Shown here piece by piece: positions 9,781-54,565 of a stretch of DNA of 54,565 nucleotides; positions within the stretch are counted from its first letter, which is position 1; every line of letters starts with the position of its first letter. Under the pieces are notes generated by a model. The model did not search any database and was not told the origin of the DNA. It saw nothing but the letters and a program-made list of their open reading frames with translations. Origin of the DNA: Komagataeibacter xylinus NBRC 15237 (lineage in GTDB: Bacteria; Pseudomonadota; Alphaproteobacteria; Acetobacterales; Acetobacteraceae); contig NZ_BCTP01000021.1 in NCBI RefSeq assembly GCF_001571345.1, positions 1-54,565 on the forward strand, given 5' to 3'. Made by a program: the position numbers and the translations under genes.

Positions 9781-9942
9781 CGAACCTGATCGGCAATGTC
9801 GAGGAAAATCCGAATGTGCGGGAGAACATCCATCGTGCATATAAGATGAAGAATGCCTTCACTCCAAAGTCAATTCTTCCTTGAGGATGGATAAGCCATA
9901 CTCCCCATACCGCGTGACCGCAGATATTTTTATGGAGACATC

Positions 9943-10986: not shown

Positions 10987-11032
10987 ATCGCGATCAGGCG
11001 CCGGTCCTGTCCATATTGTTGATGCGCATTGA

Positions 11033-12365: not shown

Positions 12366-12419
12366 ACGGAACCCGCCCGTTTTCTTGCCATTTCTGTTTG
12401 AGCCAGGAGATATCGAAGC

Positions 12420-13328: not shown

Positions 13329-13353
13329 ATCAGGGCATCGGGCCGTCGGCCGT

Positions 13354-16762: not shown

Positions 16763-16805
16763 AGCTGGCCCGTGCAGCCGCCTGCGGGCCAATGGCGGTA
16801 TAATT

Positions 16806-17290: not shown

Positions 17291-17299
17291 TGTTCCGTG

Positions 17300-17845: not shown

Positions 17846-17966
17846 GGCACAGGCTGGTCATTCTGGCGCGGGCTTTGTGGCTGCGGACTTCCAGCCGCCG
17901 GACGGCATTGGGGTTCGCACCCATGCCGGGCGAATTCCATCGACATCAGGGCGAGCGCGACGACGG

Positions 17967-18054
17967 TTCAAAAGACGGCGTTCTTCGAAGCTTTTTGAAA
18001 AAAGCTTTGCCAAAAATGTCCTTATGATTCCGGGCTGACTTTTCAACCAGTCTC
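17967..18054 (-). repeat. Dispersed hairpin-rich repeat, copy 2
   Basis: Reading the minus strand: GAGACTGG, TTGAAAAGTC, GCCCGGAATCATAAGGACAT, TTTTTGGCAAAGC, then GCTTTTTTCAAAAAGC and TTCGAAGAACGCC. It aligns with the first ~90 bases of copy 1 (11033-11197), apart from a short deletion and scattered changes. It lies between the tonB stop and the broken binding-protein gene and may have taken part in the deletion of that gene's 5' end. Confidence 0.7.
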
Positions 18055-18071
18055 CTATTATCCGTTAATGG

Positions 18072-18929
18072 TCAGGTGTGGTGGAGATAGAATTCCACCG
18101 GAACGGTGAGCGTAATAACCTCTCCCGCAACACTGTCAGGCGGGATGGGTAGCGGCTGGGCGCGTTTGGGCAGCGCTATGGCCTCCTGATCCAGCAGCGT
18201 ATGACCCGAACTGCTGGCGAGTGTTACCGAAAGCACATGGCCCTTGCGGTCCATGGAAAACGTCACGGTCGGCACGCCTTCCTGGCGGTCGGCCACCGCG
18301 TCTGACGGGTAGCGCTTGAACTTTTCAAGCTGCGCCAGCAGTGCACCCTGCCAGGTTACCGGGTCGTGCGACGCATGGGCCGATGACGAACCGGGCGCGG
18401 GGGCGGCCTGCATCGGTGCTGGTGGTGCCTCTGACGAGGGTGGCGCGGTTGTGGCCTCGGCTGGCGGGGTCTTGTCCGGGATAGGCTTTTTTAATTGCAA
18501 GACCGGCTTGCTTTTCTTGACGATCTTGCGCGGCTTTTCGGGCTTTGGCACCGGAACTGGCGGATTGGGTGCGGGCGATGGAGGTGCCGTGATCTTGGGC
18601 GGCTCGATCGGGGCCGGATCGGGAATGGACTGGGTCTGCTTCGGCCCGATGGGCGCATCCGTCGGTGGCGTCGGCGTCGAGACGGGTTCGGGGGCCATGT
18701 CGATGGCGATTGCCGCAGGCGGCGGTTCCGGCACGGCCATGACGGGCGGTGGCAGGCGCATGACACACCAGACCGCCCCGCCACTGACCGCGAGCACGGC
18801 AAGGAAGGACAGCCCCCAGCGGATGGCGTCGCGACGGCGGGTCAGACGGACCTGCTCCCGCCGCCATTCGGCGAAGGACGGCAGGGCCGTGCCGGATTCT
18901 GCCTGCGTCATGTCGGCAGCATGGCTCAT
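18072..18929 (-). CDS. tonB: TonB energy-transducing protein
   Basis: 285 residues. A cytoplasmic N-terminus is followed by one membrane span (WGLSFLAVLAVSGGAVWCVM, about 38-57). A long Pro/Lys/Glu-rich periplasmic spacer follows (PPPAAIAIDM through KPEKPRKIVKKSKPVLQLKKP). The folded C-terminal TonB domain has LAQLEKFKRYPSDAVADRQEG, VTFSMDRKGHVLSV and TLLDQEAIALPKRAQPLPIPP, all family signatures. It transmits proton-motive force to outer-membrane receptors. The start overlaps the exbD stop by four bases (ATGA), so the genes are translationally coupled. The two receptors of this island are the obvious clients. Confidence 0.95.
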   Translation of the reverse strand: MSHAADMTQAESGTALPSFAEWRREQVRLTRRRDAIRWGLSFLAVLAVSGGAVWCVMRLPPPVMAVPEPPPAAIAIDMAPEPVSTPTPPTDAPIGPKQTQSIPDPAPIEPPKITAPPSPAPNPPVPVPKPEKPRKIVKKSKPVLQLKKPIPDKTPPAEATTAPPSSEAPPAPMQAAPAPGSSSAHASHDPVTWQGALLAQLEKFKRYPSDAVADRQEGVPTVTFSMDRKGHVLSVTLASSSGHTLLDQEAIALPKRAQPLPIPPDSVAGEVITLTVPVEFYLHHT

Positions 18930-19453
18930 GGGGTCGCGCCTGATGCCGGGGTGGCAGGCGTGGAAGCCGGTGTTGCGCCACTCACTGCCGGAGCAGCAGT
19001 GCCAGACGGCACAGGCGTTGAACCGGCCTCGCTGCCTTGCTCCTGCCCCTGCAGGTTGACCAGCGCGACCTTGAGGTAGCCAGCGGACCGCAGCTTATCC
19101 ATCACCCCCATCAGCGTGCCATAATCCACGGTCTTGTCGGCGCGCAGGAAGATCCGTTCGTCCCTGTTGCCCTTGGTGGCACTCTCCAGCGCGCCCGCCA
19201 GAGCATCCATGGTGATGTCGTCTTCCCCCAGCGCCAGATTATGGTCGGCCTTCACTGTCAGGAACACCGGATCATCGGGGCGCGGCGTGGGTTTCTCGGT
19301 CGAGGATGGCAGGTCCACCGGCACGTTCACCGTGGTCAGCGGGGCCGTGACCATGAAGATCACCAGCAGCACCAGCATCACGTCGATGAACGGCGTGACA
19401 TTGATCTCGCTGGCTTCGTGCGGGCTTTCATCGGTATGGCGCATACGGATCAT
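18926..19453 (-). CDS. exbD: ExbD/TolR-family biopolymer transport protein
   Basis: 175 residues. Signature [25 protein letters not shown] includes the single membrane span with the essential Asp (FIDVMLV) that carries protons. The periplasmic domain with [26 protein letters not shown] and [22 protein letters not shown] follows. An unusual low-complexity tail rich in Ala/Thr/Pro/Gly (about 40 residues after NLQGQEQG) extends beyond the usual ~140-residue length. It works with ExbB and TonB in the inner membrane. Six bases separate it from exbB. Confidence 0.95.
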
Positions 19454-19459
19454 GGCGGA

Positions 19460-20199
<740 letters not shown>

Positions 20200-20203
<4 letters not shown>

Positions 20204-20436
20204 GACTGACCTCCTTTGACAGATGGTGTGCGGCACCATGCCCGCAGGAGGCAGGCAACCGTCACGATGAGGGGAATGGAGAGGGCGGTCCACGACAGGG
20301 CCAGCCAGATGCCGTGCTGGCCCAGCAGGGCGGACAGCAGGCCAAAAACAGTGAGCAGGCCCAGCACGATCGGCCATAGCCAGATGGCGACGGATGGGCG
20401 CGGGGTCACAACTGGCGAGGGCGAGACGGCGTTCAT
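20200..20436 (-). CDS. Small membrane protein in the PepSY-ExbB operon
   Basis: 78 residues with two hydrophobic spans (IWLWPIVLGLLTVFGLLSALLG and ALSWTALSIPLIVTVACLL) and a positively charged end. Its start overlaps the stop of the PepSY gene (20433-20436), and its stop overlaps the exbB start (20200-20203), so it is coupled at both ends and is almost certainly translated. I do not know the family. Its position suggests a helper subunit of the PepSY protein or of the TonB motor. Confidence 0.75.
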
Positions 20437-39398: not shown

Positions 39399-39746
39399 AG
39401 CATGGCGTTGCGAGATGGTGGCGTCTCCCCGCTTTTTTGTTGCTACCATAAGCATATATCCCGATATGAATCTTTTATGAACATTGAATGAATTTAAAAT
39501 GAAATAGAATAGAGAAGTATATAAACCAGATAAGGAATTTGTTAGGGGAACTCCGTTAGGATTTATGCTGGAACGCCCCAGGGCAATGAAAAAGGGCATT
39601 ACTTCAGAGCGGAATGACGGCCCTTCACGCCATGCCCGGGACTGTCAGCACGCTTACGCATGACCATATTGACATGCAATCGCTTGCTTTCACGACTGAA
39701 GCCTTGGTCAAGGCATGGTCAAAGGGCAACGAAACAAGATTCCTTC
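39399..39746. other. Intergenic region before the phospholipase gene
   Basis: About 350 bases. AT-rich between 39470 and 39540, where a promoter could lie. A TTGACA hexamer at 39670 might be a -35 element, but no good -10 is at the right distance. No gene is supported. Confidence 0.35.
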
Positions 39747-42257
39747 ATGCGCGAGCCAATCATGACGACACGTAGAGATTTCCTGAAATATGCCCTCCTC
39801 ACGGGTGCCGCGGGAGCGTCTTCCCGCCTGCCCGCTTCCATCGGGCGGGCCTTCGCGATTGCGCCCGAGGTAGGGTCCACCTGGCAGGATGCCGAGCATG
39901 TCGTGATCCTGATGCAGGAAAACCGTTCTTTTGATCATGTATTTGGCACCCTGCAGGGCGTGCGCGGGTTCAATGACCCGCGTGCCATGCGCCTGCCCAA
40001 CGGTAACCCGGCTTTTGTACAGTCCAGCCAGTCAGGCGAGACCTATCTGCCGTGGCGGCTCAACATTCGTGATACGCGTGTGACATGGATGGGTTCCATC
40101 CCCCACTCCCGCGACAGCCAGGTTGATGCGTGGAACAATGGCGGCCATGACCGATGGATCGACGCCAAGAAGTCGCACCACAAGGACTATGCCCACTATC
40201 CATTGACCATGGGGCATTATACCCGCGAGGACCTGCCCTTTTACTATGCCCTGGCCGACGCCTTTACCGTATGTGACCAGAATTACTGTGGCGCCATGAC
40301 CAGTACCACCCCAAACCGGCTGCTGTTCTGGACCGGCACGGTGCGCGACCGGCAGGTTCCAACGTCGAATGTGTACATGCGTAATGGTGAGATCCTTGAA
40401 GGCGGCATGACGTGGCGCACCTTCCCCGAGCGGCTGGAACAGGCAGGCGTTTCATGGAAATTCTACCAGAACGAACTCTCGCAGGCTGGCGGCATGAGCG
40501 CGCCCGAGCGGGCATGGCTGTCCAATTTCGGGTGCAATGTGCTGGAATGTTTCGATCAGTACCATGTCACGGCCAATCCCGGTTTTGGCGCGTGGCTTGA
40601 GGAGCGCATCAATGAATGCCAGTCACATATCGATCGGCTGAACACACATGAAATGCTTGTGTCAGGCACGCATGGCGAACAGTTGGCCGAAGCGCGAAAC
40701 CTGCTGGCCGTGCTCACGCGCCGCCGTGCTGCTGCGGGCGAAACGCCTGAAAAACTGACACCGGCGGAACGCGCCCTGTTTGGCAACGCATTCGTGACCA
40801 ACACGGGCGACAGGAACTACCGCAAGCTGGAAAAACTGAAATTCCATGATGGCAGAAAAGCCATCCACATGCAGGCGCCCAAGGGCGATGTGCTGCATCA
40901 GTTCCGCCAGGATGTCAGAACAGGCAGGCTGCCCACCGTTTCATGGCTGGCAGCACCCGAGCATTTCTCCGATCATCCGACCTCGCCGTGGTATGGGGCG
41001 TGGTACGTATCGGAAATCATGGATATCCTGACCGAAAACCCCGATGTATGGAAAAAGACCATCTTCATCATGACCTATGATGAAAATGACGGCTATTTCG
41101 ATCATTGCTGCTCCTATGCCGCACCCGACCCCAACCGGCCCGAAACCGGCACGTCATCGCGCAGCATTGGCCAGAAGGGGCTGGAATATACGAGCGCGCA
41201 GGATGAAATCAATCGTGGCGTGCCGGAGCGCCTGGCGCGCAGTGGGCCGATCGGGCTGGGCTTTCGCGTGCCGATGGTCATCGCCTCGCCCTGGAGCCGG
41301 GGCGGATGGGTCAATTCGCAACTGTTCGAGCATACCTCCACGCTGCGTTTTCTTGAGACCTTCGTGCGGGGCAAATTCGGCAAGGACGTGACTGAGACCA
41401 ATATCTCGCCCTGGCGGCGGGCCATCAGTGGCGACCTGACATCATGCTTCCGCCCCTATGATGGCAGCATGCCGCACCTGCCCTTCCTTGAGCGCAATGC
41501 GTATCTGCACACCATCGAGAGCGCGCGCAACCGGCCCCTGCCCGGTGGCTATCAGGCCCTCGATGCGGCTACGATTGCCGCCCTGCGCAACGATCCGGCC
41601 AAAATGCGCGAAAGCGTGGCGCAGGAATCCGGCACGCGGGTCGCCTCCCCCCTGCCCTATGAGCCGTATTGCGATGGTGGGGTCTCGGCTGATGGCAGGC
41701 AGGTGAGCGTACACCTGCGCGCGGGCCGGGCCCGCTTTGGCGCCCGTGCTGCTGGCGTGCCGTTCAATATCCATCGCCACGGCATCGCGTCGGAAAGCAG
41801 CATGCAGGCGGGCACTTACGCCGTGGCGGCAGGCGATGCGCTTGATGTGACGTTTGCCCAGTCCACCTTCCACAACCGGGTCTATGATGTGGACGTGCAT
41901 GCCCCCAACGGCTTTTACCGCCGCTATAGCGGCAGGAAGGGCGGCCTGCGGCTACAGGCGGCCTGCACCTACCTGCGTGGGCCGGGGAAGGATCTGGTCG
42001 TGACCATAAGCAATCATGGCGCGAAACACGCGAACCTGACCTGCTCCATGGCGCCCTCCGGCATCACGCGCGCGGTGCATGTGGCCGCTGGCGGCAGCGT
42101 GAGCATGGCGTTTGACCTGACGCAGGGCATGCTGTGGTATGATCTCACCGTGTCGAGTGCGGATGAGCCGGAACTGCTGTATCAGTTCGCAGGGCGCATC
42201 GAGACCGGGCGGCCGGGGCGCACCGACCCCGCCATGGCGGCGGTCCACCCGGCCTGA
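39747..42257 (+). CDS. Tat-exported phosphocholine-type phospholipase C
   Basis: 836 residues from MREPIMTTRRDFLKYALLTGAAG; ATG 39762 is an equally good start. TTRRDFLKYALLTG is a textbook twin-arginine motif. The phosphoesterase domain has MQENRSFDHVFGTLQGVRGFNDPRA, FYYALADAFTVCDQNYCG, TYDENDGYFDH and FRVPMVIASPWSRGG, the metal-site segments of the acid phosphatase/PLC superfamily. Two C-terminal DUF756-type domains follow (around 680-835). It would cleave phosphatidylcholine or sphingomyelin, which acetic acid bacteria contain or meet. The first 29 codons of the longer frame are not protein-like. Confidence 0.92.
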   Translation: MREPIMTTRRDFLKYALLTGAAGASSRLPASIGRAFAIAPEVGSTWQDAEHVVILMQENRSFDHVFGTLQGVRGFNDPRAMRLPNGNPAFVQSSQSGETYLPWRLNIRDTRVTWMGSIPHSRDSQVDAWNNGGHDRWIDAKKSHHKDYAHYPLTMGHYTREDLPFYYALADAFTVCDQNYCGAMTSTTPNRLLFWTGTVRDRQVPTSNVYMRNGEILEGGMTWRTFPERLEQAGVSWKFYQNELSQAGGMSAPERAWLSNFGCNVLECFDQYHVTANPGFGAWLEERINECQSHIDRLNTHEMLVSGTHGEQLAEARNLLAVLTRRRAAAGETPEKLTPAERALFGNAFVTNTGDRNYRKLEKLKFHDGRKAIHMQAPKGDVLHQFRQDVRTGRLPTVSWLAAPEHFSDHPTSPWYGAWYVSEIMDILTENPDVWKKTIFIMTYDENDGYFDHCCSYAAPDPNRPETGTSSRSIGQKGLEYTSAQDEINRGVPERLARSGPIGLGFRVPMVIASPWSRGGWVNSQLFEHTSTLRFLETFVRGKFGKDVTETNISPWRRAISGDLTSCFRPYDGSMPHLPFLERNAYLHTIESARNRPLPGGYQALDAATIAALRNDPAKMRESVAQESGTRVASPLPYEPYCDGGVSADGRQVSVHLRAGRARFGARAAGVPFNIHRHGIASESSMQAGTYAVAAGDALDVTFAQSTFHNRVYDVDVHAPNGFYRRYSGRKGGLRLQAACTYLRGPGKDLVVTISNHGAKHANLTCSMAPSGITRAVHVAAGGSVSMAFDLTQGMLWYDLTVSSADEPELLYQFAGRIETGRPGRTDPAMAAVHPA

Positions 42258-42336: not shown

Positions 42337-42400
42337 GACGTTTTTGGTGAAGCTTTTATCATTTTTTATCAATGAGTTGTTTTTAAATAGTGTCCTGTAA
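42337..42400 (+). repeat. Dispersed hairpin-rich repeat, copy 3 (internally deleted)
   Basis: GACGTTTTTGGTGAAGCTTT is identical to copy 1, but the next sequence jumps straight to ATTTTTTATCAATGAGTTG and TTTAAATAGTGTCCTGTAA, which are the end of copy 1. About 60 central bases (both hairpins) are missing. It sits between the convergent phospholipase and SGNH genes. Confidence 0.7.
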
Positions 42401-42402
42401 AA

Positions 42403-42430
42403 ATGCTGCCCTTTTTGCAAAAGGCAGCAT
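42403..42430. terminator. Hairpin between convergent phospholipase and SGNH genes
   Basis: ATGCTGCC-C-TTTT (42403-42415) pairs with AAAAGGCAGCAT (42419-42430), one bulge, three-base loop. Lying in the gap between two gene ends, it may serve as a bidirectional terminator or be part of the repeat's border. Confidence 0.5.
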
Positions 42431-42464
42431 CTGGAAAACTGTTCCCTACAGGCGTATGGCGTTT

Positions 42465-44144
42465 TTACTGGCCAAGAAAATTGGCGATATTCTGCCACAC
42501 GTTGCGGGCGATGATGTCATGCCCGGCCTGGTTGGGGTGGGTTGTATCGGCAAGCCATTTTGTCTGGTCAAGCACATCGGAAAGAGGCTCGCCGGTGGAG
42601 AAAAGATCGAGTTCGAGATCGGCAGGAATCTTGCCATCCTCGACCGCATTGTCCAGCGCCTTGCGCGGCGCGCCCTGCGTCATGGTCTCGTCAAGGAATG
42701 CCACGTGATAGCCGGCTTTTTTCAGGCGGCTGGTGATCTGCCCGAGGTTATGGACCGTCTCGCCGGTGCCGATCTGGTGCAGGTGGTCATTGAAGCCGCC
42801 AAACACGACCGCGACCTTGCGGCCGGGATGGCGGGCCAGTGCTTCCGCTGCGGGCACCATGTCCAGCATCTGCTTGGTCGTGGCCCCTGACACGGCAAAA
42901 TTGTAGCTTTTGTAGCGGGCGTAACGCTGCATGAGATAGGGCCAGTTCGTGCCATCGCTCAGGCCGAAGCCTTCCGTCCGGCTATCGCCAATGGCAACGA
43001 CAGTATCACGTAGCTGCGGCATGTGGTTGCCTGCCACGGCGGCAGCGGCTTCAAAGTCCTGCTCCTGCCCGGCCGTGGCGGCCTGATCGGCGATGACGAT
43101 ACCGGTCCACTGCCCGGTGTTGCGGCCCTGTTCAAACCAGTTGCCGCCATCGGCATTATACCCGATATATCCGCCGGAAAACGCCCCCCCCGACAGCGCC
43201 CCGCCAAGCACGACGTGGTTATTGCCGTTTTCAAGCCGGTAGCCCGCCGGTGTTGCGCTCAGGCCAAAGGCGGCGGGATCGTTGCTGATGATCAGGTCCG
43301 TGCGCTGGTCCGGGCTGCGCATGTCAGCCACATGCACGAAGCCATCGAGCGTGTAGCTGCCCATGAACACCTTGAATTCCTGCCCTTGCTGCCCCAGCAT
43401 GAGCGGCACGGGGAAGGCAGAATAGCCGGAATTGGATGAGGCATAGGTGCCCGTGGTGCCAAAAAAGAAGCTGTTGGTGGGTACCTTGAGTGTCTGCGGC
43501 AGTACAAATCCACCCGGCCCGTTAATTTCACCCCAGGAGAGGGTCTCCTGCCCTGAAACCTGCACCGCGCCGATATGCACCACATGGTGCCCCGGCGTCG
43601 CTACAATGTGGTTGCCGTGCCCGGTCTGGTCATACACGCGGGTTACGGTGGCGAAGGTGCCCGCATCCCGCGCGGCGAGAACGCGCTTGAGGGTGGCCGT
43701 ATCAAGCATGCCATCAGGACGTATGTTCAGCGTGGTGGCAACCGTCTGGCCGCCTGCTGTCGTCTCGATATCCACGGCGGGGCCGGAATAGGTGCTGACC
43801 ATTCGCGTAGGCCCACCGGCAAAAACGGCATGCGGGCCAAAGGTATCGGCGGGGGCATGCGGTGTGGGCACGGCCGTCCACTGCGCGGCCCCGGGCGTAA
43901 GCGCGGTTGCGCGCCACACCTGCCCGCCTGCCTGCCACAGGTCGCCTGGCGCGTAACCGCTGCTCACGTCGTCATGCGCACCGGGCGGGCGGTTCAGCCC
44001 TGTATTCGCGGCGCTATTGGCCGGAATGCAGGTTTCTGTGCCTTTATGGTCATCAGCCGGGCATTGGGCCGCTACCCCAAGGGCAGGCAGGCCAAGGGTT
44101 GCCATGGCGGTGATGCAGGCCAGAACTCTTCCGCGCGTTTCCAT
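42465..44144 (-). CDS. Secreted two-domain protein: arabinofuranosidase-B-like fold plus SGNH hydrolase
   Basis: 559 residues. Sec signal LACITAMATLGLPALGVAAQ, then a Cys-containing linker. Residues ~95-340 resemble the GH54/AbfB catalytic beta-sandwich: AARDAGTFATVTRVYDQTGHGNHI (RVYDQTGHGN is characteristic), MLGQQGQEFKVFMGS and DQRTDLIISNDPAAF. Residues ~370-555 are an SGNH hydrolase with all four blocks: GDSRTEG (Ser), SGATT (Gly), GGFNDH (Asn) and DTTHPNQAGHD (Asp-His). It follows bcsC by 57 bases in the same direction, so it is probably the last gene of the bcs operon. Deacylation of the exported polymer is inferred. Confidence 0.8.
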   Translation of the reverse strand: METRGRVLACITAMATLGLPALGVAAQCPADDHKGTETCIPANSAANTGLNRPPGAHDDVSSGYAPGDLWQAGGQVWRATALTPGAAQWTAVPTPHAPADTFGPHAVFAGGPTRMVSTYSGPAVDIETTAGGQTVATTLNIRPDGMLDTATLKRVLAARDAGTFATVTRVYDQTGHGNHIVATPGHHVVHIGAVQVSGQETLSWGEINGPGGFVLPQTLKVPTNSFFFGTTGTYASSNSGYSAFPVPLMLGQQGQEFKVFMGSYTLDGFVHVADMRSPDQRTDLIISNDPAAFGLSATPAGYRLENGNNHVVLGGALSGGAFSGGYIGYNADGGNWFEQGRNTGQWTGIVIADQAATAGQEQDFEAAAAVAGNHMPQLRDTVVAIGDSRTEGFGLSDGTNWPYLMQRYARYKSYNFAVSGATTKQMLDMVPAAEALARHPGRKVAVVFGGFNDHLHQIGTGETVHNLGQITSRLKKAGYHVAFLDETMTQGAPRKALDNAVEDGKIPADLELDLFSTGEPLSDVLDQTKWLADTTHPNQAGHDIIARNVWQNIANFLGQ

Positions 44145-44201
44145 GTAATGCTGTTCCCGGATATGAGGTGTAGGGCATGAACCTGCCCCCGATTGATTGT
44201 A

Positions 44202-47200
44202 TTACTGACCGTCAAATGCGTAATGCGCCATCCACATGCCACTGGTTTCAGACCAGTTGCCTGCCCGGCTGTAGCCGCCTTCCATGCCCACCCGCAACCG
44301 ATGGGTAAACTGATAGACAATGCGCCCGCGTACGTTGCCCGCAAGACCGCTTGCCCCGCTGCCTGAATATTCATCAGGCGGGTTCGAGGCCGCAAGCTGC
44401 TGCAGGCTTGCACTTGTGGGGTAATAGGGCGCTCCATTGCTGTGATAATGCTGGAACCCTGCCTCACCGCGCAGGAACCACGTCCATCGCCTGTTATGCC
44501 CCGACCATTCAACCGGCACCATCGCGCCGTAATACTGCTGTGGCGAGAAGTAACCGCCCTGCCCCCATGTAAAGAAGTAACTGTCACGCTTGTAACCAAA
44601 ATACATGAGGTCCAGCCCCACGCGCAACCACTGCCGGTTGTGGGTCTGCCATACCGTGGCGGTGCCGCCAGCACCTGCTTCCACCTCGGTATTGCTCTGC
44701 ACATGCGTGCCATCCAGATAGGCAAAGCCGCCACCGGCATAGATGTTCCACCCTGGCGCGGACCATTCCAGCGCCCCATGGCCAAACATGCGTGTCACCC
44801 CGCCCCACACCCGGTTCGTGCCAGGATCGTGCATGCCCGCGTAGGACAGCTCGCTATCCGTGACCATGCGGCGGCCCCCGCTTATGCGCAGGCCAAGGTT
44901 ACGGGTCAGGCGCGGCGCGAATTCCACACCCCCCACCACGTTGGTAATGGGGAAGCCCAGCGGCGAAGACCCCACATCGGCCGAGAACCAGTGATTGACG
45001 TAGTTCAGGCTCAGCCCCACGCCCTGCGTATAGTAATGATGATACGCCCCCGGCAGGGCGCCATTGATGGAATAGGTGCCGAACTGGTGGGCTGAGTAAG
45101 AATTGTTCAGCGCATCGCCGGTAAACAGCAGCGTGGGCGTGATCGAGAAGGACAGCCGGTGCTCCCATGATTCAAACGGCAGCGTGCCGGTGATGGGAAT
45201 GGCGAATTCCGTCAGTTGCCCCAGCCCTGCAACGCCGGTGCGGCTACGCACGAAGCTGTTGGCGTCGAGTTGTGGCGAGATGGAATCACGCAGGTAGACG
45301 ATCTGCCGGTCCATCGCCTCGGCGCCGTCATCCTCGGGGATGTAATGATAGGTTGCAGGCAGTGTCGCGCCCTGCAGGTCGATGTAATTGCTGTCAATGA
45401 ACGGCCAGCGATAATCCGGCAGGAAGCTTTCATGGCCTGCATACGTGCTTTCGCCATCAAGCGTGCGCTGGGCGCGGCGGGCGTGTTCCACATCGGCTAG
45501 CTGCGCGCGCGTATTGCCCGCCACGCGATCGACATCGGAGCGCACTTCCCAGCTCATAGGGCCATCGGGGTCTTCATGCGCCAGCCGCTCGGCATAGCCG
45601 CGTGCGAGCGCTACCTGGTTCGTACCGCCCGCATCACGCGCGGCGGCGGCAAGGCCGTAGATATTGTGCGGCTTGAGGCGAAGCGCAATCTGGTCTTCCT
45701 CCAGCGCGCGGGCGGGCATGTTGCGTGTCTGGTATATCCGGCCCATGGCCAGATGGGCCTCGGCTGATTCCGGGTGGGCGCGCAGCACGGGAGCCAGTAC
45801 CTGATAGGCCTTCGTGGTCTGGCCATAACGGTCAAATTCATCGGCGGTCATGATGGCGAGGCCGATGGCAATGTCGTTTCTTATGTGTAATTGTTCCGGT
45901 GTGACCGATCCGGGGTAGTCACGTGCCATCGCATCAAAGGTGCTGAGGCAGCGCGTGGTGTCGAACGTGGCATGCAGGCGCAGGTACAGCCCGGCATAGG
46001 CCAGCATCTGCGCAGCCTTTGGTGGCTGGGTCAGGCGCTCTTCGCCGGCCAGCACCTGCTGGGCCTCCCGCGTGGCATGGCGGTCCAGCAGGGCGCCAGC
46101 AATCTGCACGCCCCGGTCACCCGTGGGGTCGGGCTGGTCGGCCAGCGCCACGAGGGCGGCATTATCCGCGCGCGGCGCGCGGTTGAGCGCCTGTATGCGG
46201 CGGGCAAGCTCGATCTGGCTGGCAATGCTGGCCATGCCAGCGCTCTGCCCGCCTGCAGGCAGACGCGCCATCAGGCGCTCGGCGGTGGCGAGGTCATGCT
46301 GGCCCATGGCGTAGATGATCCCGGCCTGCAGGTCATCGGGCGTGACGGATCTGGCATTTGTCAGGTCATCCATCAGGCTCTGCGCCTGAAAATGGCCGCC
46401 TGCATCATCAAGCGCATGGGCTAGCTTGAGGCGGATCCACGGGTCCGTGGGCTCAAGGGCCGCGGCCTCGCGCAGCAGGGCTACGCGTTCATCGGGGTCA
46501 CGCGTGCTGTCGGCGCGGGCGGAAAGATCGGCGGCCTGCAGGTAGGTTGCCAGCGCCGGGCGCAGGGGTTTGAGGCGGGCAATGATATCCTGTGCTTCCG
46601 CCCCGCGCCCGGTCTGGATCAGGATGCCGCCCAGATTGAACAGCGCATCGGCATTGCCTGGCGCCTGGGCCAGAATTTCACGATAGATGCGCTCGGCCTC
46701 CACATCATGCCCCTGCTTACGCTCGAGCATGCCTTCCAGTGACAGGAAAGTCAGCCTGCTGCCAGGGCGGCGGCCCAGCGCCGCGAGGTCCGTGCGCGCC
46801 GTATCATAGTGGCCATCATTGATGGCCTGTAATATCCGCACCACCAGCGGGTCCACGCCCCCGGGGCCAGATTGCAGTGCCTTGATGGCCGCCCGCCAGT
46901 GGGGGGCCGAGTCCGGGTCAGCCTGTATCGCCTGTAGGAAATACTGCATGGCCTGCGCGGGCTGCTGCCGGGCCTGCGCCACCAGCCCCAGCCCGCCCAG
47001 CGCATCGGCATCATGGGCATTGAGCGCAAGGGCGTGGTGAAAGCGTTGCGATGCGCCTTCCAGGTTATGGCGGGCCAGCAGCGCGTAGCCCTCCTGGTGG
47101 GCGGTGGCGGCATCGATGGCGTTCTGTGTTTCCTGTGCCTTGTGCAGCAGTTCGCTCACTTCCGCATCATCGGGGTGCAGACCGAGCCATTCATTATAGA

Positions 47201-48155
47201 GCGGAATGGTGGGGCCTGTGATCGGCTCCCACAACAGCGCCTCGCGCCATGCTGCAACCGCCCCTTGCCGGATTGGTGCCGGAGCGTTGGAGCGGGCGAG
47301 TTCGCGCAGGCCGTCCATCCCTTCGGGGCGCGACGTGACACGGTAGGTCAGGATCCGGTCCAGCAGCAGCCGGGCATCGAGATCGCGCAGGTTGCGCTGC
47401 ACCCAGGCGGTCAGCTTGGTCTGGGCTTCCTGGCGGCCCAGAATGGTTGCCCCCAGCACGCGGTAATATTCCAGTGCCAGATCGGGTGGCGGGTCGCCGT
47501 TCTTGAAAAGCGCCTTGTACTTGAACATGGCAGGCATCATCTTGCCTGCCGCTGCAAGGGCGCGGGCCTCGGCCAAGCCCTTGGGGTCTACGGGGCCAGC
47601 CTGTATCTGCGCCTTGAGGTCGGCAACCAGCCCCGGCGCCGCGCCGTTGCGCTCCAGCCGGGCCAGCGTGGCCGAAGCCTGGGCCGGGTTGCCCTGCGCC
47701 ATGAGCAGGCGCCCCTGCAGGTAAAGCGCTTCAGGGTTATTGGGCTCGAGCGAAATCGAGCGTTCTATCGTTTCATGCGCTTTATTCAGGTTATGCTGGC
47801 CCAGCCAGTAATAACCCTGGTTGAGCAGCAGTTCCAGCACGGCTGCCGCATGCGCCATGTGCGCGCGTTCCGCATCCTGGTCCTGCGTGGGCGTGACCGT
47901 GATGGCTGTGCCGCCGGTTGTGATTGGAGTGTTTGGCGTGGCCTGGGCGGGGTCCGCCGCCCGCGCCATCTCGCCCGACAGGATGACTCCTGCCATCATG
48001 CCGCAAAGGAGTTTCAGCGTGCTCCATGCCGGGCGCATGGGCTGGGGCACCATGACCCAGGCTGCGGGCGCACGACGCCATCCGCGCCCCGCAGGCAGCG
48101 TGCTGGCGGCATGGTATCGTCCTTTTATGTCGTGTCTAATGAACACGGGACACAT
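44202..48155 (-). CDS. bcsC: Cellulose synthase outer-membrane subunit BcsC (type II operon)
   Basis: 1317 residues. A hydrophobic export region is at MRPAWSTLKLLCGMMAGVILSG; the true start may be 48053 or 48038, since the first ~35 residues look untranslated and overlap the bcsY end by 20 bases. A long TPR solenoid follows (NQGYYWLGQHNLNKAHETIERSISLEPNNPEALYLQGRLL and many similar repeats, roughly 70-900). A C-terminal beta-barrel (about 960-1317) ends in MWMAHYAFDGQ. BcsC carries the glucan across periplasm and outer membrane. Length and TPR-barrel order are as in BcsC of Komagataeibacter. Confidence 0.93.
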   Translation of the reverse strand: MCPVFIRHDIKGRYHAASTLPAGRGWRRAPAAWVMVPQPMRPAWSTLKLLCGMMAGVILSGEMARAADPAQATPNTPITTGGTAITVTPTQDQDAERAHMAHAAAVLELLLNQGYYWLGQHNLNKAHETIERSISLEPNNPEALYLQGRLLMAQGNPAQASATLARLERNGAAPGLVADLKAQIQAGPVDPKGLAEARALAAAGKMMPAMFKYKALFKNGDPPPDLALEYYRVLGATILGRQEAQTKLTAWVQRNLRDLDARLLLDRILTYRVTSRPEGMDGLRELARSNAPAPIRQGAVAAWREALLWEPITGPTIPLYNEWLGLHPDDAEVSELLHKAQETQNAIDAATAHQEGYALLARHNLEGASQRFHHALALNAHDADALGGLGLVAQARQQPAQAMQYFLQAIQADPDSAPHWRAAIKALQSGPGGVDPLVVRILQAINDGHYDTARTDLAALGRRPGSRLTFLSLEGMLERKQGHDVEAERIYREILAQAPGNADALFNLGGILIQTGRGAEAQDIIARLKPLRPALATYLQAADLSARADSTRDPDERVALLREAAALEPTDPWIRLKLAHALDDAGGHFQAQSLMDDLTNARSVTPDDLQAGIIYAMGQHDLATAERLMARLPAGGQSAGMASIASQIELARRIQALNRAPRADNAALVALADQPDPTGDRGVQIAGALLDRHATREAQQVLAGEERLTQPPKAAQMLAYAGLYLRLHATFDTTRCLSTFDAMARDYPGSVTPEQLHIRNDIAIGLAIMTADEFDRYGQTTKAYQVLAPVLRAHPESAEAHLAMGRIYQTRNMPARALEEDQIALRLKPHNIYGLAAAARDAGGTNQVALARGYAERLAHEDPDGPMSWEVRSDVDRVAGNTRAQLADVEHARRAQRTLDGESTYAGHESFLPDYRWPFIDSNYIDLQGATLPATYHYIPEDDGAEAMDRQIVYLRDSISPQLDANSFVRSRTGVAGLGQLTEFAIPITGTLPFESWEHRLSFSITPTLLFTGDALNNSYSAHQFGTYSINGALPGAYHHYYTQGVGLSLNYVNHWFSADVGSSPLGFPITNVVGGVEFAPRLTRNLGLRISGGRRMVTDSELSYAGMHDPGTNRVWGGVTRMFGHGALEWSAPGWNIYAGGGFAYLDGTHVQSNTEVEAGAGGTATVWQTHNRQWLRVGLDLMYFGYKRDSYFFTWGQGGYFSPQQYYGAMVPVEWSGHNRRWTWFLRGEAGFQHYHSNGAPYYPTSASLQQLAASNPPDEYSGSGASGLAGNVRGRIVYQFTHRLRVGMEGGYSRAGNWSETSGMWMAHYAFDGQ

Positions 48156-49296
48156 AAGAGATATAGAACAGGATCGCCGCCAGCGTCACGCACGCGCCGA
48201 CAAGCAGGGCGGCGCCACGGTTGCGCGCGGAAACCGCAACCCGGTCCTCATAATCAAGCCCGGTCCGCTCCACGAACACGTAGCTCAGCACGCTGATGAC
48301 AAGGACGATGCCCAGCACGGCCGCCATCATCCACCCATGCACCTGGAAGAAGAAGAGGTAATTCGCCACCACGATGCCCGGCCAGTGCCACAGATAGACC
48401 GAATACGAAATGACCCCGAGCGGTGAAATGGGCACAAGGCACAACCTGCCCACCTGCGTTTCGGGCAGCATGATGATGGTGGCCACGGCAACGCAGGGGA
48501 AAATGGTCATGTAGGACGGGCAGGCAAACTGAAGGGTATAGAACAGCCCTGCCCCCACAATCACCGCCAGCGCCACGGCATAGACAATATTTGCAACAAC
48601 CGGGGAAAGGCGTGGCCGGGGCAATATCCAGATCATGGTGCCAAGTGAAAACTGCCACAGCCGATCGAATATGTTGTAATAAGCCTGCGTATCGCCCTTG
48701 ACGTAGCTCCATGCGCAAAATGCCATCGAGGCGGTGAAAATGCCCGAGAGCACCAGCTTGCGGTGCCTTGTCAGCGGCAGCAGCAGCGCCATCAGGAAGA
48801 TGATGGTATAGAACTGCATTTCCAGCGAGAGCGACCATGTGTGCAGGAACGGGTAGGCAATGCTCTGCCCCTGGAAATACCCGACATGCCCCGAAGCCCA
48901 TATGTTGGACAGGTACACCAGCGCATAGGCCCCGTTGATGGCAATATCGGCCCGGTCGCTTTGCAGGACCCACCACAGCATGCCCGCCGAGACCAGGGCA
49001 ATCATGCAGACCAGCGCGGGCAGCAGGCGGTAGAGCCTGCGGCAGACAAACCGCAGGGGCTGGAACGGATGCTGCATGAGCGCCGAGCGCCCCATGAAAT
49101 AGCCCGAGATCACCACAAAAATATCGACGCCGATAAAGCCGCCCTGCAGCCAGCCTGCATGGAACAGGACCACAAGGGCAATGGCAAGGCCACGCAGCCC
49201 ATCGATATCGCGTCGACGGTTGAGGGGAAAAAAGTCTTTCTCAAGTATTTCACGCCACCTGCTCGGCGTAGCGGCAGGTTCATTCAGGTGCAGCAT
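48136..49296 (-). CDS. bcsY: BcsY, membrane acyltransferase of the type II cellulose operon
   Basis: About 386 residues from MLHLNEPAA; an alternative start lies at 49344. The acyltransferase-3 family begins RRRDIDGLRGLAIALVVLFHAGWLQGGFIGVDIFVVISGYFMGR, with the conserved Arg/Asp/Gly-Leu-Arg and the His. About ten membrane spans follow. Members O-acylate sugars (OafA, NodX), so acetylation of cellulose is the usual proposal for BcsY. It overlaps bcsC and lies directly after bcsX, consistent with one transcript. Substrate is inferred from location and literature. Confidence 0.9.
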   Translation of the reverse strand: MLHLNEPAATPSRWREILEKDFFPLNRRRDIDGLRGLAIALVVLFHAGWLQGGFIGVDIFVVISGYFMGRSALMQHPFQPLRFVCRRLYRLLPALVCMIALVSAGMLWWVLQSDRADIAINGAYALVYLSNIWASGHVGYFQGQSIAYPFLHTWSLSLEMQFYTIIFLMALLLPLTRHRKLVLSGIFTASMAFCAWSYVKGDTQAYYNIFDRLWQFSLGTMIWILPRPRLSPVVANIVYAVALAVIVGAGLFYTLQFACPSYMTIFPCVAVATIIMLPETQVGRLCLVPISPLGVISYSVYLWHWPGIVVANYLFFFQVHGWMMAAVLGIVLVISVLSYVFVERTGLDYEDRVAVSARNRGAALLVGACVTLAAILFYISYVSRVH

Positions 49297-49382
49297 CAAC
49301 AGATTTCCACGTCTTGTGCCCGTCATGGGCAGATACGGAAGCACGCCGTGCGGTGTCGCTCATGCTTCCGTAAGGGGCGACC

Positions 49383-50054
49383 TTACTGGCCGGTGGCAGG
49401 CGGGGCGTCTTTTAACTTTTCAAGTTCAGGCAGCGTCGCCTGCACAATCGCGTTGCCCCATACCTTGTAGCTTTCAGGTGTTGCATGAATGCCATCAATG
49501 GTGTTCACGCTGCCCTGCTTGAGCAGTGCCGTGCCATCGACATAGGTGCAGGGTGCGACTTCACCCTTGAGGAAGGTGGCCATTTCGGTCGCACGCTGGT
49601 CGGTCTTGCCATAGCGCGGGCTGAACTGGCCCCAGGTCGGCCCGACCCAGATGCACGCGGTCTTGCCAATGGCATAGGTCAGGGTCTTGACCTGCTCGTC
49701 CACCCAGTCTTTCGAGACCGAGGCCTGGCCATAGGCTGCCATAGTATCGCCAAGAATCACCATTACCACGTTGGGATGCCACTTGGCCACGAGGTCGCTG
49801 ATGGGCGGGGGCGATGCGGGCTTCATGTTGGGCGCGCCAATCGGGGCATCGCCAATGCGCTCGGCGGCGCCGCAGCCATTGTTGGGGTTGGGCACGACCC
49901 AGTCAGCCGCGGTGGAGGAACACACACCGTAGGTGACCACTTTCGCGCCCTGGCGGCTGAATTCATCCGGCAGCACGGACAGGAGGGAGTCCTTGAACGT
50001 GACGTGGCTATCGCCGATGATCAGCAGCGTGAGGCCAGCAAGAAGAGCACTCAT
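49383..50054 (-). CDS. bcsX: BcsX, SGNH-like hydrolase of the type II cellulose operon
   Basis: 223 residues. A hydrophobic stretch LLAGLTLLII opens the protein and is followed at once by GDSH, the block I nucleophile motif. The last block is TIDGIHAT with the catalytic Asp-x-x-His. VVMVILGDTMAAY and the Trp/Cys-rich middle fit a GDSL/SGNH fold. GGAGA lies nine bases before the ATG. It could cleave acyl groups from the polymer or serve as the transferase partner of BcsY, as SGNH domains do in OafB-type enzymes. The gap to bcsAB is 112 bases. Confidence 0.88.
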   Translation of the reverse strand: MSALLAGLTLLIIGDSHVTFKDSLLSVLPDEFSRQGAKVVTYGVCSSTAADWVVPNPNNGCGAAERIGDAPIGAPNMKPASPPPISDLVAKWHPNVVMVILGDTMAAYGQASVSKDWVDEQVKTLTYAIGKTACIWVGPTWGQFSPRYGKTDQRATEMATFLKGEVAPCTYVDGTALLKQGSVNTIDGIHATPESYKVWGNAIVQATLPELEKLKDAPPATGQ

Positions 50055-50166
50055 GAATTACTTCTCCGTATAAGAATTTATTTATGGACCGGGGCGATGC
50101 GACAGACATTGCCGCCCATGCAGGCCGCACCATGTGGGGCACGGTCAGCATGCAGGGACGTTTACC

Positions 50167-53100
50167 TTATGCCTCACCGGTCCTGTCATCATCCAGCACG
50201 CGCCTGCGAGACTTGGCGCGCAGCCAACTCCACGCCCCGAAAGCGGTCAGTCCCGCCCCTGATAGACCGGTCAGATAAAGAATGAAAGGATGATAACTCA
50301 GATACCGGTCGAGTTGCAGCCACAGGGGTAATGAGCCCACTTTGTAGGTCGGCGCGGTGCGGTAACTGGTAAACTGTTCGGCGTTCTTGAGCACCAGATC
50401 CCCCTGGATGGAGGATAGATCCCTGGTGTTGCGCAGGCTGAGCACCAGGTCATGGATGCGCTGCGGCGTATCGCCCACAAAGGCGATGACCGAGCGCTGG
50501 CTGTCATAGGGTGACTGTGCGCCGATCATCACGCCTGCCTCGGCAATCGGCGCATTGAGGTGAGCACTCACGCCGTTGAGCAGGCCGGCATGATCGTGGT
50601 CCTGAAACAGGTACCAGATCCCTTCCAGCCCCATGTGCTGGCCAACCCGCACGTGCCCGTCCTTGATCACGTAAGGCGAGCGTGACAGCAGGTCGGAGGC
50701 TGAATTCAGCCGGTCGGCGGTGGAAAGCAGGATGATATCACCCTGCGGGGTGGTATTTTTCATCTGGTCCGCCGTCATGACATGCACGCCTGCGGCGGGG
50801 TACCACGTTGTCGCGCCAAAGAAGCCCATGAGGTCAAGGAACGAGCCAGCGGTGCCCGCATCGGGGCTTTGCGGCAGGATGATCGTCGTCTCGGACAGAT
50901 CGGCCATGCGGGAGAACGGAAAGGCGGCCTCGGCGAAATAGGACAGGTTGGGCAGTTCGGCGTAATGGTAGCCCCGGCGGAAATCGAGGGTGGAATCTGA
51001 ATCCACGCTCATGCGGATATCACCCGGCGTGCGGCGGCATGCGCCCCGGTCGATGGGGCGGGCGTCAAAATTGAACTGCAACTGGTTCTGGCCAAACAGC
51101 AGCCACGGTGGCAGGGCGGTCATGTGACCCGTGGCCCCTGCATGCTGGTTGACCAGCCTTTCCGACCATTTCTGCCACACGCCGGGCGGCGAGAGCGAAT
51201 AGCTTTGCAGGTAATTGTTGTTCAGGCTGACATCGACGCGTGATGTCTCGAGGTCCACCACCGGGCCTCCGGGCGCGCGCACCCACATGTTCATGAGGTA
51301 AGGCCGCCCCCGCCAGGTATAAAGGTCAGGCGGCAGGTGGAAGGGCAGCGTCATGCCCGCAGGCGTATAGCCCCCGCCCTGCAGGTCGGCAGCACCGACG
51401 AGTTCACCAAAACGCACAGGGCGGTCGGTTGGCACGAAGGCAGGCGCATCATAAGCCTGGCGGGGGTCGAGGGTCACGTCCTCCACCACTTTCGATGCAA
51501 CGCCGCCAAGCGTATCGTGTGAGAAAGCCAGATTCCGCGCAGCCGCCTCGACTTCCTGCGCGGTGCGCCCGGTCACGATCAGCACAATGCCCCACGGGTC
51601 ATTGGGGTTGGCGACCTCGGCAAGGGTCGGGCCGGTGGGCAGCGTGCCATTGGCATCAAGGGGAATGTTCCGGCCCACTTCAACCGCGTTACCCGATGCG
51701 GGCACGGTTGTGGAAACTGGAAAGGACAGCGCGCGGAAATCGGCGATCTTGCCAAACCATGAGGCGATCACGCCCGCGGCCTTCAGGTCATCCCGGTTTT
51801 CGGGAGATGGCATGACGAACGGAACCCGGAGTGCCGCGCGCAGGTTGGGGTCGAAAAAGGGCGCGGGCAGGCGCGAGAGCTTGCGTTCGGGCGCGATCCG
51901 CACCGTGGTCAGGGTAATGCGCGAGCTGTCGGAAATGCGCGCCCACAGGATCTCGTTGAAGAGATCATTGCAATCACGCCTGTATTCACCGGCAAAACGG
52001 AAATTGAGCTTGTTATCGCCGGTAAAATACAGCGGATCGACATCGAACGTGATGGGGCCGAACTCGGGGTGGTCGGGGTTGACCTTGATCGTGCCGATAT
52101 ACTGCTCGTTCAGCGTGACCGTGACAGCGCTCGCCTCTGGCAGAAGCGAGGGCGAGAGCGCGCCAGAAAGGGTAAGTTGCGCGTGCGTGACCACCCGGTT
52201 GGCGGGCACGACCACATCAAGCCCCTGTAGCGGAGAGTAGCCGCGCAATGTCAGCGGGCCGGTCGTGGCGCCAAGGTCGCGGAATGACAGGGTGCGCGTC
52301 ACCTCCGTATCGCTGATCCGGGCTGCGGCCAGCGGGTCGACCGCAGGAGCGGCATCGGGCACGATGCCCGTATTGCTGTCACCAAACGGGGTCTGGGTGC
52401 TGATTCCGGTCTGGTCCACCGTGGTGGTGGCGGGCACGGGCGCAAGCCCCTGGGCCAGTGCCGCGGGGGCCAGGGCCGTAAAGGCCAGGAGGAAAGTGGC
52501 GGATAGGGCAGCCCCACTGCGGGCGCCGCGTTGGGCAGGTTTCAGCACGAGGCTCTGTTTCTCCAGTTTTTCTTCCACCATGGGCACGGTGATGTCCTCT
52601 GCCTGCGCAATGGGGCGGGGTTTTTCAGGCTTGCGCCATTTAAAGAGGTCGCCAATGCTTCTGAACACCATGACGATGCTGCGGAGCGGGCGGTCGGGGG
52701 GGAAATCGGCCCAGTTGGCCCAGGCATCGCTGCGCCCGAACACCATATCGACTATCTGGCGTTCATCGTTCAGGTCCTGGCGCGCCCATTGCAGGCGCAG
52801 ATTGCCCGGTTGCATGGCCATGATTTCGGCCGGCACATGGGTGTGAATGCCGTCACGCTCGTTGTCGTAGCTGACCATGACGGTCTGTGGCGCTTCGACA
52901 TTGTGCGGCCAGTCCAGGTCAACTGACAGGCCGCCGAGCGAGATGTCATGCGTATGGGCATGAAACGCCCTGCCCTGCTCATCGGTAATGGTTACGGGCA
53001 GGCGCACGGTAATGCGCGGCGCGGCGCGGGTCTGGCGCGTTTCGCGCCCCACGGCGATGGCAGCCAGCACGATAATGAGGCTGATGATCACCCACAGGGT

Positions 53101-54565
53101 ATTGAGCACGAAGGACTGGAGTGCGAGGCGGTCGTGATATTGCCAGATGATGCCAAACACACCACGCATGAGGGCTGCAAACAGGATAAGCGCCAGAATG
53201 ATATTGGGATAGACCGCGCTGAAATCGAAATAGCCGCGTTCGAGCAGGCCGCCCTTGTCGGTCACGTTGAACTTGCCCTTGTGGGGCTGGAGCAGGGTTA
53301 CGATAGTGATCCGCACCAGGAACAGCGCGAGCGAGGTTTCGTAAATCTCGCTCCAGAAGGAATAACGCCACCGCCCTTCAACACGTGAAAGGGTCATGAT
53401 GGAATGAAAGATATGGGGCAGCGCATAGGCGCTGATGGCCAGCGGCGAGGCCGCGATGATGTTTTCACCCAGGAAGAGATAGGCCAGCGGCGAGACCAGA
53501 AAGGTTACGCGCGGGATGGCGAACAGGAAGTGCGACATGGCGGAAAGATAGCAAAGCCGCTGCTCCCACCGCAGGCCGCGCCCGAGCATGGGGTTGTCGA
53601 GCCGCATGATCTGGAGCATGCCGCGCGCCCAGCGCACGCGCTGGCCGATATGCAGGATCAGGCGCTCGGTCGCCAGCCCGCCTGCCAGCGGTTCGCGCAG
53701 GTAGCCGGTGCCCCAGCCCTTGCGCTGCATCTTGAGTGCGGTATGGGCATCTTCGGTGACGGTTTCGGTCGCGAAGCCGCCGATCCCCATAACGGCGGAG
53801 CGGCGGATGATGGCGCATGAACCACAGAAGAACGTTGCATCCCAGAAATCATTACCATCCTGCACCAGACCATAGAACATGTTGCCTTCAGGCGGCACAT
53901 GCATGCCTGCGGCCAGATTGCGCTGGAACGGGTCAGGCGCATAGAAATGATGCGGGGTCTGCAGAAGGGCGAGGTTGGGGTCGGCAATCATCCAGCCGAT
54001 GGTTCTTTTAAGGAAGCCACGGGTGGGTACATGGTCGCAATCAAAAATGACCGCGAATTTCCCGTCCGTTACCTTAAGGGCATGATTGAGGTTGCCAGCC
54101 TTTGCATGGTTGTTTTCCGAGCGGATGATGTAACCCGCGCCTGACTCTATCGCAAAGTCACGGAAAGCAACCCGCCTGCCATCATCAAGAATATAGACAT
54201 TCAGCTTGTCTTCCGGCCAGTCAAGTTCCAGCGCGCCCAGAACCGTCGAGCGCACGAGAGACAGTTCTTCATTATAGGATGGCACGTAGACATCCACGCT
54301 CGGCCACTCGGCAGGATCTTCTGGCAGGGCATGCTCCCTGCGCTCCAGCGGCCACGACATCTGGAAGTAACTCAGGCACAGCGTGGCCAGGGCATAGGTC
54401 TCGGCCAGCAGGAGCAGGATGGACAGGGCACCCTGTATCAAACCGTGGAATTCCAGCGTGGTGGTCAGCCGCCATACGATATAGCGCAGGGAGACAAGCA
54501 GCGACAGCATCATCAGGAATATGGTGATGCCCCGTCCCGGCCTGCGGTTGAGCACCAGCAGGAGC
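50167..54565 (-). CDS. bcsAB: Fused cellulose synthase BcsAB (catalytic plus periplasmic domains), 5' end outside window
   Basis: At least 1465 codons, open to the right edge; about 70-90 N-terminal residues are missing by comparison with known BcsA. BcsA half (numbers from the first GTG in the window): DDG (125), DCD (172-174), TED (267-269) and QRVRW (305-309) are the catalytic D,D,D,QxxRW set of GT2. PilZ has RxxxR at 510-514 and DISLGG at 537-542 for c-di-GMP. BcsB begins after a Pro/Lys linker and a hydrophobic segment near 690 and ends in one membrane span (PFILYLTGLSGAGLTAFGAW). Fusion of A and B plus bcsXY downstream identifies the type II operon. Confidence 0.97.
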   Translation of the reverse strand, partial: LLLVLNRRPGRGITIFLMMLSLLVSLRYIVWRLTTTLEFHGLIQGALSILLLLAETYALATLCLSYFQMSWPLERREHALPEDPAEWPSVDVYVPSYNEELSLVRSTVLGALELDWPEDKLNVYILDDGRRVAFRDFAIESGAGYIIRSENNHAKAGNLNHALKVTDGKFAVIFDCDHVPTRGFLKRTIGWMIADPNLALLQTPHHFYAPDPFQRNLAAGMHVPPEGNMFYGLVQDGNDFWDATFFCGSCAIIRRSAVMGIGGFATETVTEDAHTALKMQRKGWGTGYLREPLAGGLATERLILHIGQRVRWARGMLQIMRLDNPMLGRGLRWEQRLCYLSAMSHFLFAIPRVTFLVSPLAYLFLGENIIAASPLAISAYALPHIFHSIMTLSRVEGRWRYSFWSEIYETSLALFLVRITIVTLLQPHKGKFNVTDKGGLLERGYFDFSAVYPNIILALILFAALMRGVFGIIWQYHDRLALQSFVLNTLWVIISLIIVLAAIAVGRETRQTRAAPRITVRLPVTITDEQGRAFHAHTHDISLGGLSVDLDWPHNVEAPQTVMVSYDNERDGIHTHVPAEIMAMQPGNLRLQWARQDLNDERQIVDMVFGRSDAWANWADFPPDRPLRSIVMVFRSIGDLFKWRKPEKPRPIAQAEDITVPMVEEKLEKQSLVLKPAQRGARSGAALSATFLLAFTALAPAALAQGLAPVPATTTVDQTGISTQTPFGDSNTGIVPDAAPAVDPLAAARISDTEVTRTLSFRDLGATTGPLTLRGYSPLQGLDVVVPANRVVTHAQLTLSGALSPSLLPEASAVTVTLNEQYIGTIKVNPDHPEFGPITFDVDPLYFTGDNKLNFRFAGEYRRDCNDLFNEILWARISDSSRITLTTVRIAPERKLSRLPAPFFDPNLRAALRVPFVMPSPENRDDLKAAGVIASWFGKIADFRALSFPVSTTVPASGNAVEVGRNIPLDANGTLPTGPTLAEVANPNDPWGIVLIVTGRTAQEVEAAARNLAFSHDTLGGVASKVVEDVTLDPRQAYDAPAFVPTDRPVRFGELVGAADLQGGGYTPAGMTLPFHLPPDLYTWRGRPYLMNMWVRAPGGPVVDLETSRVDVSLNNNYLQSYSLSPPGVWQKWSERLVNQHAGATGHMTALPPWLLFGQNQLQFNFDARPIDRGACRRTPGDIRMSVDSDSTLDFRRGYHYAELPNLSYFAEAAFPFSRMADLSETTIILPQSPDAGTAGSFLDLMGFFGATTWYPAAGVHVMTADQMKNTTPQGDIILLSTADRLNSASDLLSRSPYVIKDGHVRVGQHMGLEGIWYLFQDHDHAGLLNGVSAHLNAPIAEAGVMIGAQSPYDSQRSVIAFVGDTPQRIHDLVLSLRNTRDLSSIQGDLVLKNAEQFTSYRTAPTYKVGSLPLWLQLDRYLSYHPFILYLTGLSGAGLTAFGAWSWLRAKSRRRVLDDDRTGEA

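Follow-up and report, generated by a model that had tools for sequence, protein, structure and literature searches.

The window analysed here, the whole 54565-base contig NZ_BCTP01000021.1 of Komagataeibacter xylinus NBRC 15237, carries a type II cellulose operon (bcsII) composed of bcsAB, bcsX, bcsY and bcsC, followed by a fifth gene whose product joins a GH54-like sandwich to an SGNH hydrolase domain. This fifth gene genuinely belongs to the operon and is kept with it in four genera (Komagataeibacter, Novacetimonas, Gluconacetobacter and Acetobacter) and in two gene orders. Its place in the operon, its domain composition, its unbroken set of catalytic residues and purifying selection form the observed basis of the reading that we tentatively favour, at slightly less than even confidence: the fifth protein would be a single exported eraser, its sandwich docking on the bcsII glucan and its SGNH domain deacylating it, with BcsX on the side of the writer.

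To survey linkage, the fifth protein, BcsX and BcsY served as queries against 397 genomes of Acetobacteraceae, bcsII being defined as a BcsX of at least 75% identity adjoining a BcsY of at least 62%. Among the 25 qualifying genomes, 20 hold an intact fifth gene (the window's own and 19 others, 48-95% identity). All 20 copies share contig and strand with bcsX-bcsY-bcsC and adjoin bcsX-bcsY, bearing out the tie to bcsII, rather than independent occurrence, that an original prediction made from the DNA letters had proposed. The gene is broken in G391. No copy turned up in G281, G367 or G142, in which the sequence beyond bcsC was read, or in G226, where the contig with bcsII stops short of bcsC. 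The other 372 genomes yielded, at E 1e-10, distant relatives only (28-33% identity, 8 genomes). Three of the 20 (G184, G340 and G060) show no bcsAB directly upstream of the cluster, and the synthase of G362 is split around it. A species-genome scan provided 27 named loci, 23 of them orthologs with 46-95% identity; bcsC lies directly upstream of the fifth gene in 22 of these, the remaining locus beginning at a contig edge, and a Komagataeibacter xylinus sequence, at 95% identity, is the nearest named relative. Insertions of ~2.5 kb lie inside bcsAB and bcsC at L102 (G135, 9269-11768) and L104 (G303, 7878-10332), with the fifth gene still intact.

The second gene order, bcsB-bcsX-bcsY-bcsC-fifth-bcsA, is present in four Acetobacter loci from three species (A. 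syzygii, A. okinawensis with two strains, and A. orientalis), one A. okinawensis locus (L076) having frame breaks in several genes. Because bcsA follows it, the fifth gene lies inside the operon there, an order with no description in the available portions of the cited literature. The common place of the 20 intact copies, together with purifying selection, excludes a chance neighbour, a candidate rejected on this conservation across genomes. The features of the locus are as follows.

50167..54564, minus strand: bcsAB, fused cellulose synthase (open reading frame; 5' end lost at the contig edge)
49383..50054, minus strand: bcsX, WssF-like SGNH protein (likeness to WssF as given in the available text of PMC9318390)
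48136..49344, minus strand: bcsY, AT3 membrane acyltransferase (PF01757, E 4.3e-25; 20-base overlap with bcsC)
44202..48155, minus strand: bcsC, outer-membrane export protein with tetratricopeptide repeats (PF05420, E 1.6e-77)
44145..44201, minus strand: gap of 57 bases separating bcsC from the fifth gene, with no unusual fold
42465..44144, minus strand: fifth gene, 559 residues, with a signal-peptide-like N-terminus, a small N-terminal region, a GH54-like sandwich and a C-terminal SGNH hydrolase (open reading frame, Pfam, structure model and fold matches)
43011..43859, minus strand: GH54-like sandwich, about residues 96-378 of the fifth protein
42468..43010, minus strand: SGNH hydrolase domain, residues 379-559, with Ser388, Gly420, Asn452, Asp533 and His536
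42401..42432, minus strand: terminator-like hairpin 3' of the fifth gene (14 pairs, loop of 4, five-T run at the 3' foot partly in the stem)

All five genes lie on the minus strand and the gap is exactly 44145..44201, as predicted from the letters. The hairpin region (42390..42445) folds at -22.7 kcal/mol with a z score of -5.24 against shuffles, and the hairpin is absent from the listing of a simple terminator consensus scan; the gap region (44141..44205) is no more stably folded than shuffled sequence (z -0.95). Taken together, the hairpin and the unremarkable gap fold make it likelier that the transcript ends beyond the fifth gene than ahead of it. Four bcsB genes are present in the whole genome, so bcsII is one of several cellulose operons here.

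The fifth protein has a signal-peptide-like N-terminus, consistent with its predicted secretion. The complete SGNH hydrolase called originally is fully borne out: Lipase_GDSL_2 covers residues 384-544 (E 5e-16) over the entire profile (1-178), with the triad and the Gly and Asn intact. The protein possesses all of the SGNH superfamily blocks I, II, III and V (Ser, Gly, Asn and Asp-His) and the fold, and all 26 aligned proteins, four distant Asaia rows and three prophage copies included, have Ser388, Gly420, Asn452, Asp533 and His536 unchanged. The structure model (predicted local distance difference test 85.2, predicted template modelling score 0.88) matches GH54-type sandwich and SGNH folds, with TesA-type esterases as the nearest SGNH structures among the matches listed. 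In PatB and Streptococcus pneumoniae OatA, both transferases, the block-II Gly is substituted by Ser or Asn (PMC12148441; this and the other papers are cited from their available portions); no such substitution is present in the fifth protein, Gly420 being kept in all 26. No match to PF16822 (ALGX, WssI/AlgX-type) was found up to E 1, and membership of the ALGX family was rejected on this basis.

The sandwich, in which RVYDQTGHGN forms residues 169-178, is predicted by the model to adopt the GH54 catalytic-domain fold, GH54 structures being the best among the matches listed, and it resembles the catalytic domain of AbfB (GH54). Of the GH54/AbfB-like sandwich originally proposed, the motif and this likeness stand, whereas the separate sugar-binding domain of AbfB has no Pfam match listed for the fifth protein. 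The PF09206 (GH54) match is weak and below the Pfam criterion, with 18.4 bits against a cut-off of 25 over residues 116-188; 18 of the 24 family members in alignment A1 match the profile at E up to 0.1. A structure-match entry names E221Q, placing the GH54 nucleophile at Glu221 (AkAbfB numbering); we take Asp297 in the same numbering to be the second catalytic residue. The profile alignment sets Glu221 opposite Arg276, at low local alignment confidence, in a variable column free of Glu in 26 rows. An active GH54 glycosidase was provisionally rejected on the sub-threshold PF09206 score and this column, and glycosidase chemistry has probably been lost from the sandwich. Among the 50 fold matches listed there is none of the lectin and thrombospondin matches of PMC9318390, which does not exclude such a likeness. 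Across four pairs, the ratio of nonsynonymous to synonymous substitution rates (dN/dS) is 0.13-0.18 for the fifth gene, 0.12-0.17 for bcsC and 0.01-0.05 for bcsX; the fifth gene is under purifying selection, with a constraint much like that of bcsC.

Nine distant copies of the fifth protein occur in the 8 non-bcsII genomes, four of them within phage gene sets. The Asaia copies L079 and L081 adjoin portal and other head and tail genes, L080 is assigned to a phage set by the same gene order, and the G241 copy adjoins tape-measure and tail genes. The initial stretch of the G353 copy, of which the G390 copy is close kin, matches tail proteins, its neighbours not being phage-like; the G105 and G010 copies have cellular-looking neighbours. 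The Asaia krungthepensis copy (L078, 9962-11575) adjoins, and is convergent with, a different bcsAB-bcsC operon (12104-20432). A relative in Acetobacter phage phiAX1 shares 28.8% identity over residues 51-559; it is annotated as a 'DNA-binding protein, KilA-N domain' (L089, 7752-9536), which looks doubtful because Pfam at E up to 0.1 matches the GDSL hydrolase only. Outside bcsII, the searches made met the GH54-fold and SGNH build in distant copies from Acetobacteraceae and nowhere else, roughly half of these copies sitting in phage sets. A tree of 25 chosen rows, unrooted and carrying a long-branch warning, places 16 operon copies on one side of a branch (100/99). No BcsY (AT3), MBOAT or ALGX relative was found at E 1e-3 in the 12 distant-copy loci, phage ones included. 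The two-domain unit therefore probably acts alone, as polysaccharide-deacetylating tail fibres reportedly do, and a module of a phage particle that needs no AT3 partner favours hydrolysis.

BcsX, the other, SGNH-like protein of the operon, has an invariant catalytic triad in 22 of 22 bcsII copies, with block III reading G-D-T, Thr replacing Asn in all 22. Across 14 wider members this position is Thr in 12 and Ala in 2, never Asn. The transferase-like Ser of block II is shared by five of these 14, the other nine having Gly, so this sign applies only to the bcsII type. Residue 16 is the catalytic Ser, 15 codons after a start preceded by a purine-rich site and an in-frame stop two codons upstream, and a cleaved signal peptide would thus be unusually short; SignalP gives none and Phobius gives one (PMC9318390). 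Cysteines 45, 61, 134 and 169, shared by every one of the 14 aligned members, hint at disulfides and a location outside the cytoplasm, in conflict with the scant room for a signal peptide. Of 24 non-bcsII matches to BcsX, 12 were fetched (34-56% identity); a tblastn search placed MBOAT and ALGX-domain genes within ~4 kb in eight (34-43% identity) and neither in 50 other loci (46 bcsII, many genomes occurring twice, and 4 Asaia). Three MBOAT and four ALGX neighbours were confirmed by Pfam, the four ALGX at E 5e-64 or better. This setting is the Wss arrangement. Lack of the block-III Asn, the short lead and the MBOAT and AlgX-type neighbours of relatives fit BcsX to the writer side, where, judged from sequence, it more likely belongs; the conflicting signal-peptide calls and the block-II Gly of the nine wider members speak against this. 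The scheme of one writer and two possible erasers originally proposed for the operon is not supported by these findings. Second bcsX-like copies with 51-56% identity are present at L117 (541-1179) and L134 (7914-8561), from G362 and G337, both of which also have bcsII; the L134 copy comes after a different bcsAB-bcsC operon.

In the favoured reading, the fifth protein would cross the inner membrane by the Sec route, as suggested by its sequence and a SignalP result of PMC9318390, and its GH54-fold sandwich may dock on nascent or finished bcsII glucan. BcsY, aided by BcsX, would add acyl groups to the glucan, and the SGNH domain would take them off, acting in the esterase direction on this presumed substrate. 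By analogy, the fifth protein could be the sole eraser, as Ape1 is for PatA-PatB. Operon linkage, the canonical oxyanion Gly, the TesA-type likeness and the solo phage copies count for this reading. In K. xylinus E25, ethanol raises bcsY and lowers bcsZ, the name there for the fifth gene (PMC9318390), as expected of a writer and an eraser.

Several points weigh on the other side. Four of the 25 bcsII genomes have no fifth-gene match and one has a broken copy, so bcsII can persist without the gene, and an acyl group on the bcsII product is not reported in the available portions of the cited literature. K. hansenii ATCC 53582 is described as lacking the fifth gene (PMC9318390), yet Fourier-transform infrared spectroscopy detected no acetyl in its pellicles (PMC10106347); more acetyl would be expected without an eraser, but the pellicle is mostly bcsI cellulose. 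The matching gene slot of BcsX relatives is often filled by an AlgX-type writer, SGNH enzymes can be transferases, WssI having both activities (PMC10302187), and polymer docking is putative, as suggested by the modelled fold.

The leading alternative, which we consider unlikely although it keeps a real share of the probability, is the fifth protein as terminal writer, with BcsY (AT3) passing the acyl group across the membrane and the exported SGNH domain transferring it to the glucan, a WssI- or AlgX-like role. With BcsX/WssF as the conserved core, AT3 would stand in for MBOAT and the two-domain SGNH protein for the AlgX-type one, and gene content suggests that BcsY and the fifth protein occupy these two places. 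The eight BcsX-relative loci with MBOAT and ALGX genes, against neither in the 50 others, agree with this, as do the clearer signal peptide of the fifth protein among the two SGNH proteins (PMC9318390) and the lack of an ALGX match in the window's own genome, the control genomes being equally silent. An AT3-only protein can give acetyl to a separate SGNH protein, but stand-alone AT3 proteins are thought to act without SGNH (PMC9558356). Transfer is further opposed by the absent ALGX match in the fifth protein, the canonical block-II Gly in all 26 rows and the lack of AT3, MBOAT and ALGX relatives near the 12 distant copies. A wider reading, likewise unlikely, would make bcsII a third type of machinery for acylating cellulose, in which a BcsX/WssF core is joined by AT3 for MBOAT and a GH54-fold-SGNH protein for the AlgX-type SGNH to set the acyl groups.

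An improbable further alternative, proposed from the lectin-like fold in PMC9318390, is that the protein is mainly an adhesin linking cells or amorphous bcsII polymer to crystalline cellulose, with SGNH activity secondary; the sandwich fold and its slower evolution (dN/dS 0.07-0.12 versus 0.13-0.22 for the SGNH part, four pairs) agree, but the catalytic residues, invariant in 26 of 26, would be needless in a bystander domain. Equally improbable is an esterase or arabinofuranosidase-type enzyme that shares only the transcript and acts on another polymer, such as a plant cell wall or the acetan-like polysaccharides that Komagataeibacter makes (PMC11858473), since retention with bcsII in four genera and two gene orders and the variable, Glu-free nucleophile column tell against what the GH54 fold might suggest.

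A phosphocholine-specific phospholipase C with a twin-arginine translocation-type start (39660..42257, plus strand; TIGR03396, 784.9 bits, cut-off 580) is convergent with the fifth gene; loci of K. xylinus, K. nataicola and K. melomenusus have it ~3-3.5 kb past the fifth gene. Elsewhere in the window's own genome (G000), contig C76 clusters two more SGNH hydrolases and an MBOAT gene (1125-1643, 5045-5596 and 13-594), possibly another acylation cluster.

Acylated cellulose from industrial cellulose producers has long been suspected and is not shown in the available portions of the cited literature; naming the writers and erasers of bcsII tells which deletion should raise acyl content visibly. 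Deletion of bcsAB2 or bcsY raised the Young's modulus of the pellicle (PMC10106347), a stiffness shift by which the bcsII system bears on material properties.

The fifth gene is not new: Szymczak et al. 2022 (PMC9318390) published it from the type II operon of K. xylinus E25 under the name bcsZ, a confusing label, since BcsZ in E. coli is an endoglucanase. The same paper reports that bcsC of E25 is interrupted and that, in E. coli, soluble material did not contain the fifth protein. The E25 protein (WP_025439171.1) is described with a signal peptide, an N-terminal part without assignment, a lectin-like middle and a C-terminal SGNH domain with a full triad (Ser403/Asp550/His553, with Gly435 and Asn467); the gene is missing from some strains, and a role in acylation and attachment was suggested. 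The acylation idea is thus itself already in print, being mentioned also in PMC10302187, where two SGNH proteins are proposed for bcsII with undefined activity. PMC9318390 compares BcsX with WssF; its available portions make no mention of the gene order in Acetobacter, of relatives in phages or of MBOAT and ALGX genes near BcsX relatives. Gene, place after bcsCII, signal peptide, SGNH residues and middle sandwich are the same here, and nothing essential differs; the sandwich called lectin-like there finds GH54 structures as its best matches among those listed here.

Compared with known systems, bcsII resembles PatA-PatB-Ape1 (PMC12148441) in its membrane acyl translocator, an SGNH protein with a non-canonical oxyanion hole and a candidate SGNH esterase, and differs in having AT3 for MBOAT and a cellulose-type polymer. 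PatB keeps the block-III Asn, whereas BcsX lacks both it and a clear signal peptide, and the esterase candidate of bcsII carries a GH54-like sandwich, unlike that system. With WssF-WssG-WssH-WssI of P. fluorescens (PMC10302187) it shares a cellulose synthase operon, a WssF/BcsX-type protein and a second SGNH protein, but AT3 replaces the MBOAT protein WssH and the second SGNH protein is not of the ALGX family. The sandwich shares with GH54 alpha-L-arabinofuranosidase B (1wd3) its fold, the YDQ-G-GN signature and a profile match over the initial portion of the domain; it differs in scoring under the Pfam cut-off, in a Glu221 seemingly not conserved, in having no AbfB sugar-binding domain listed and in its fusion to an SGNH domain.

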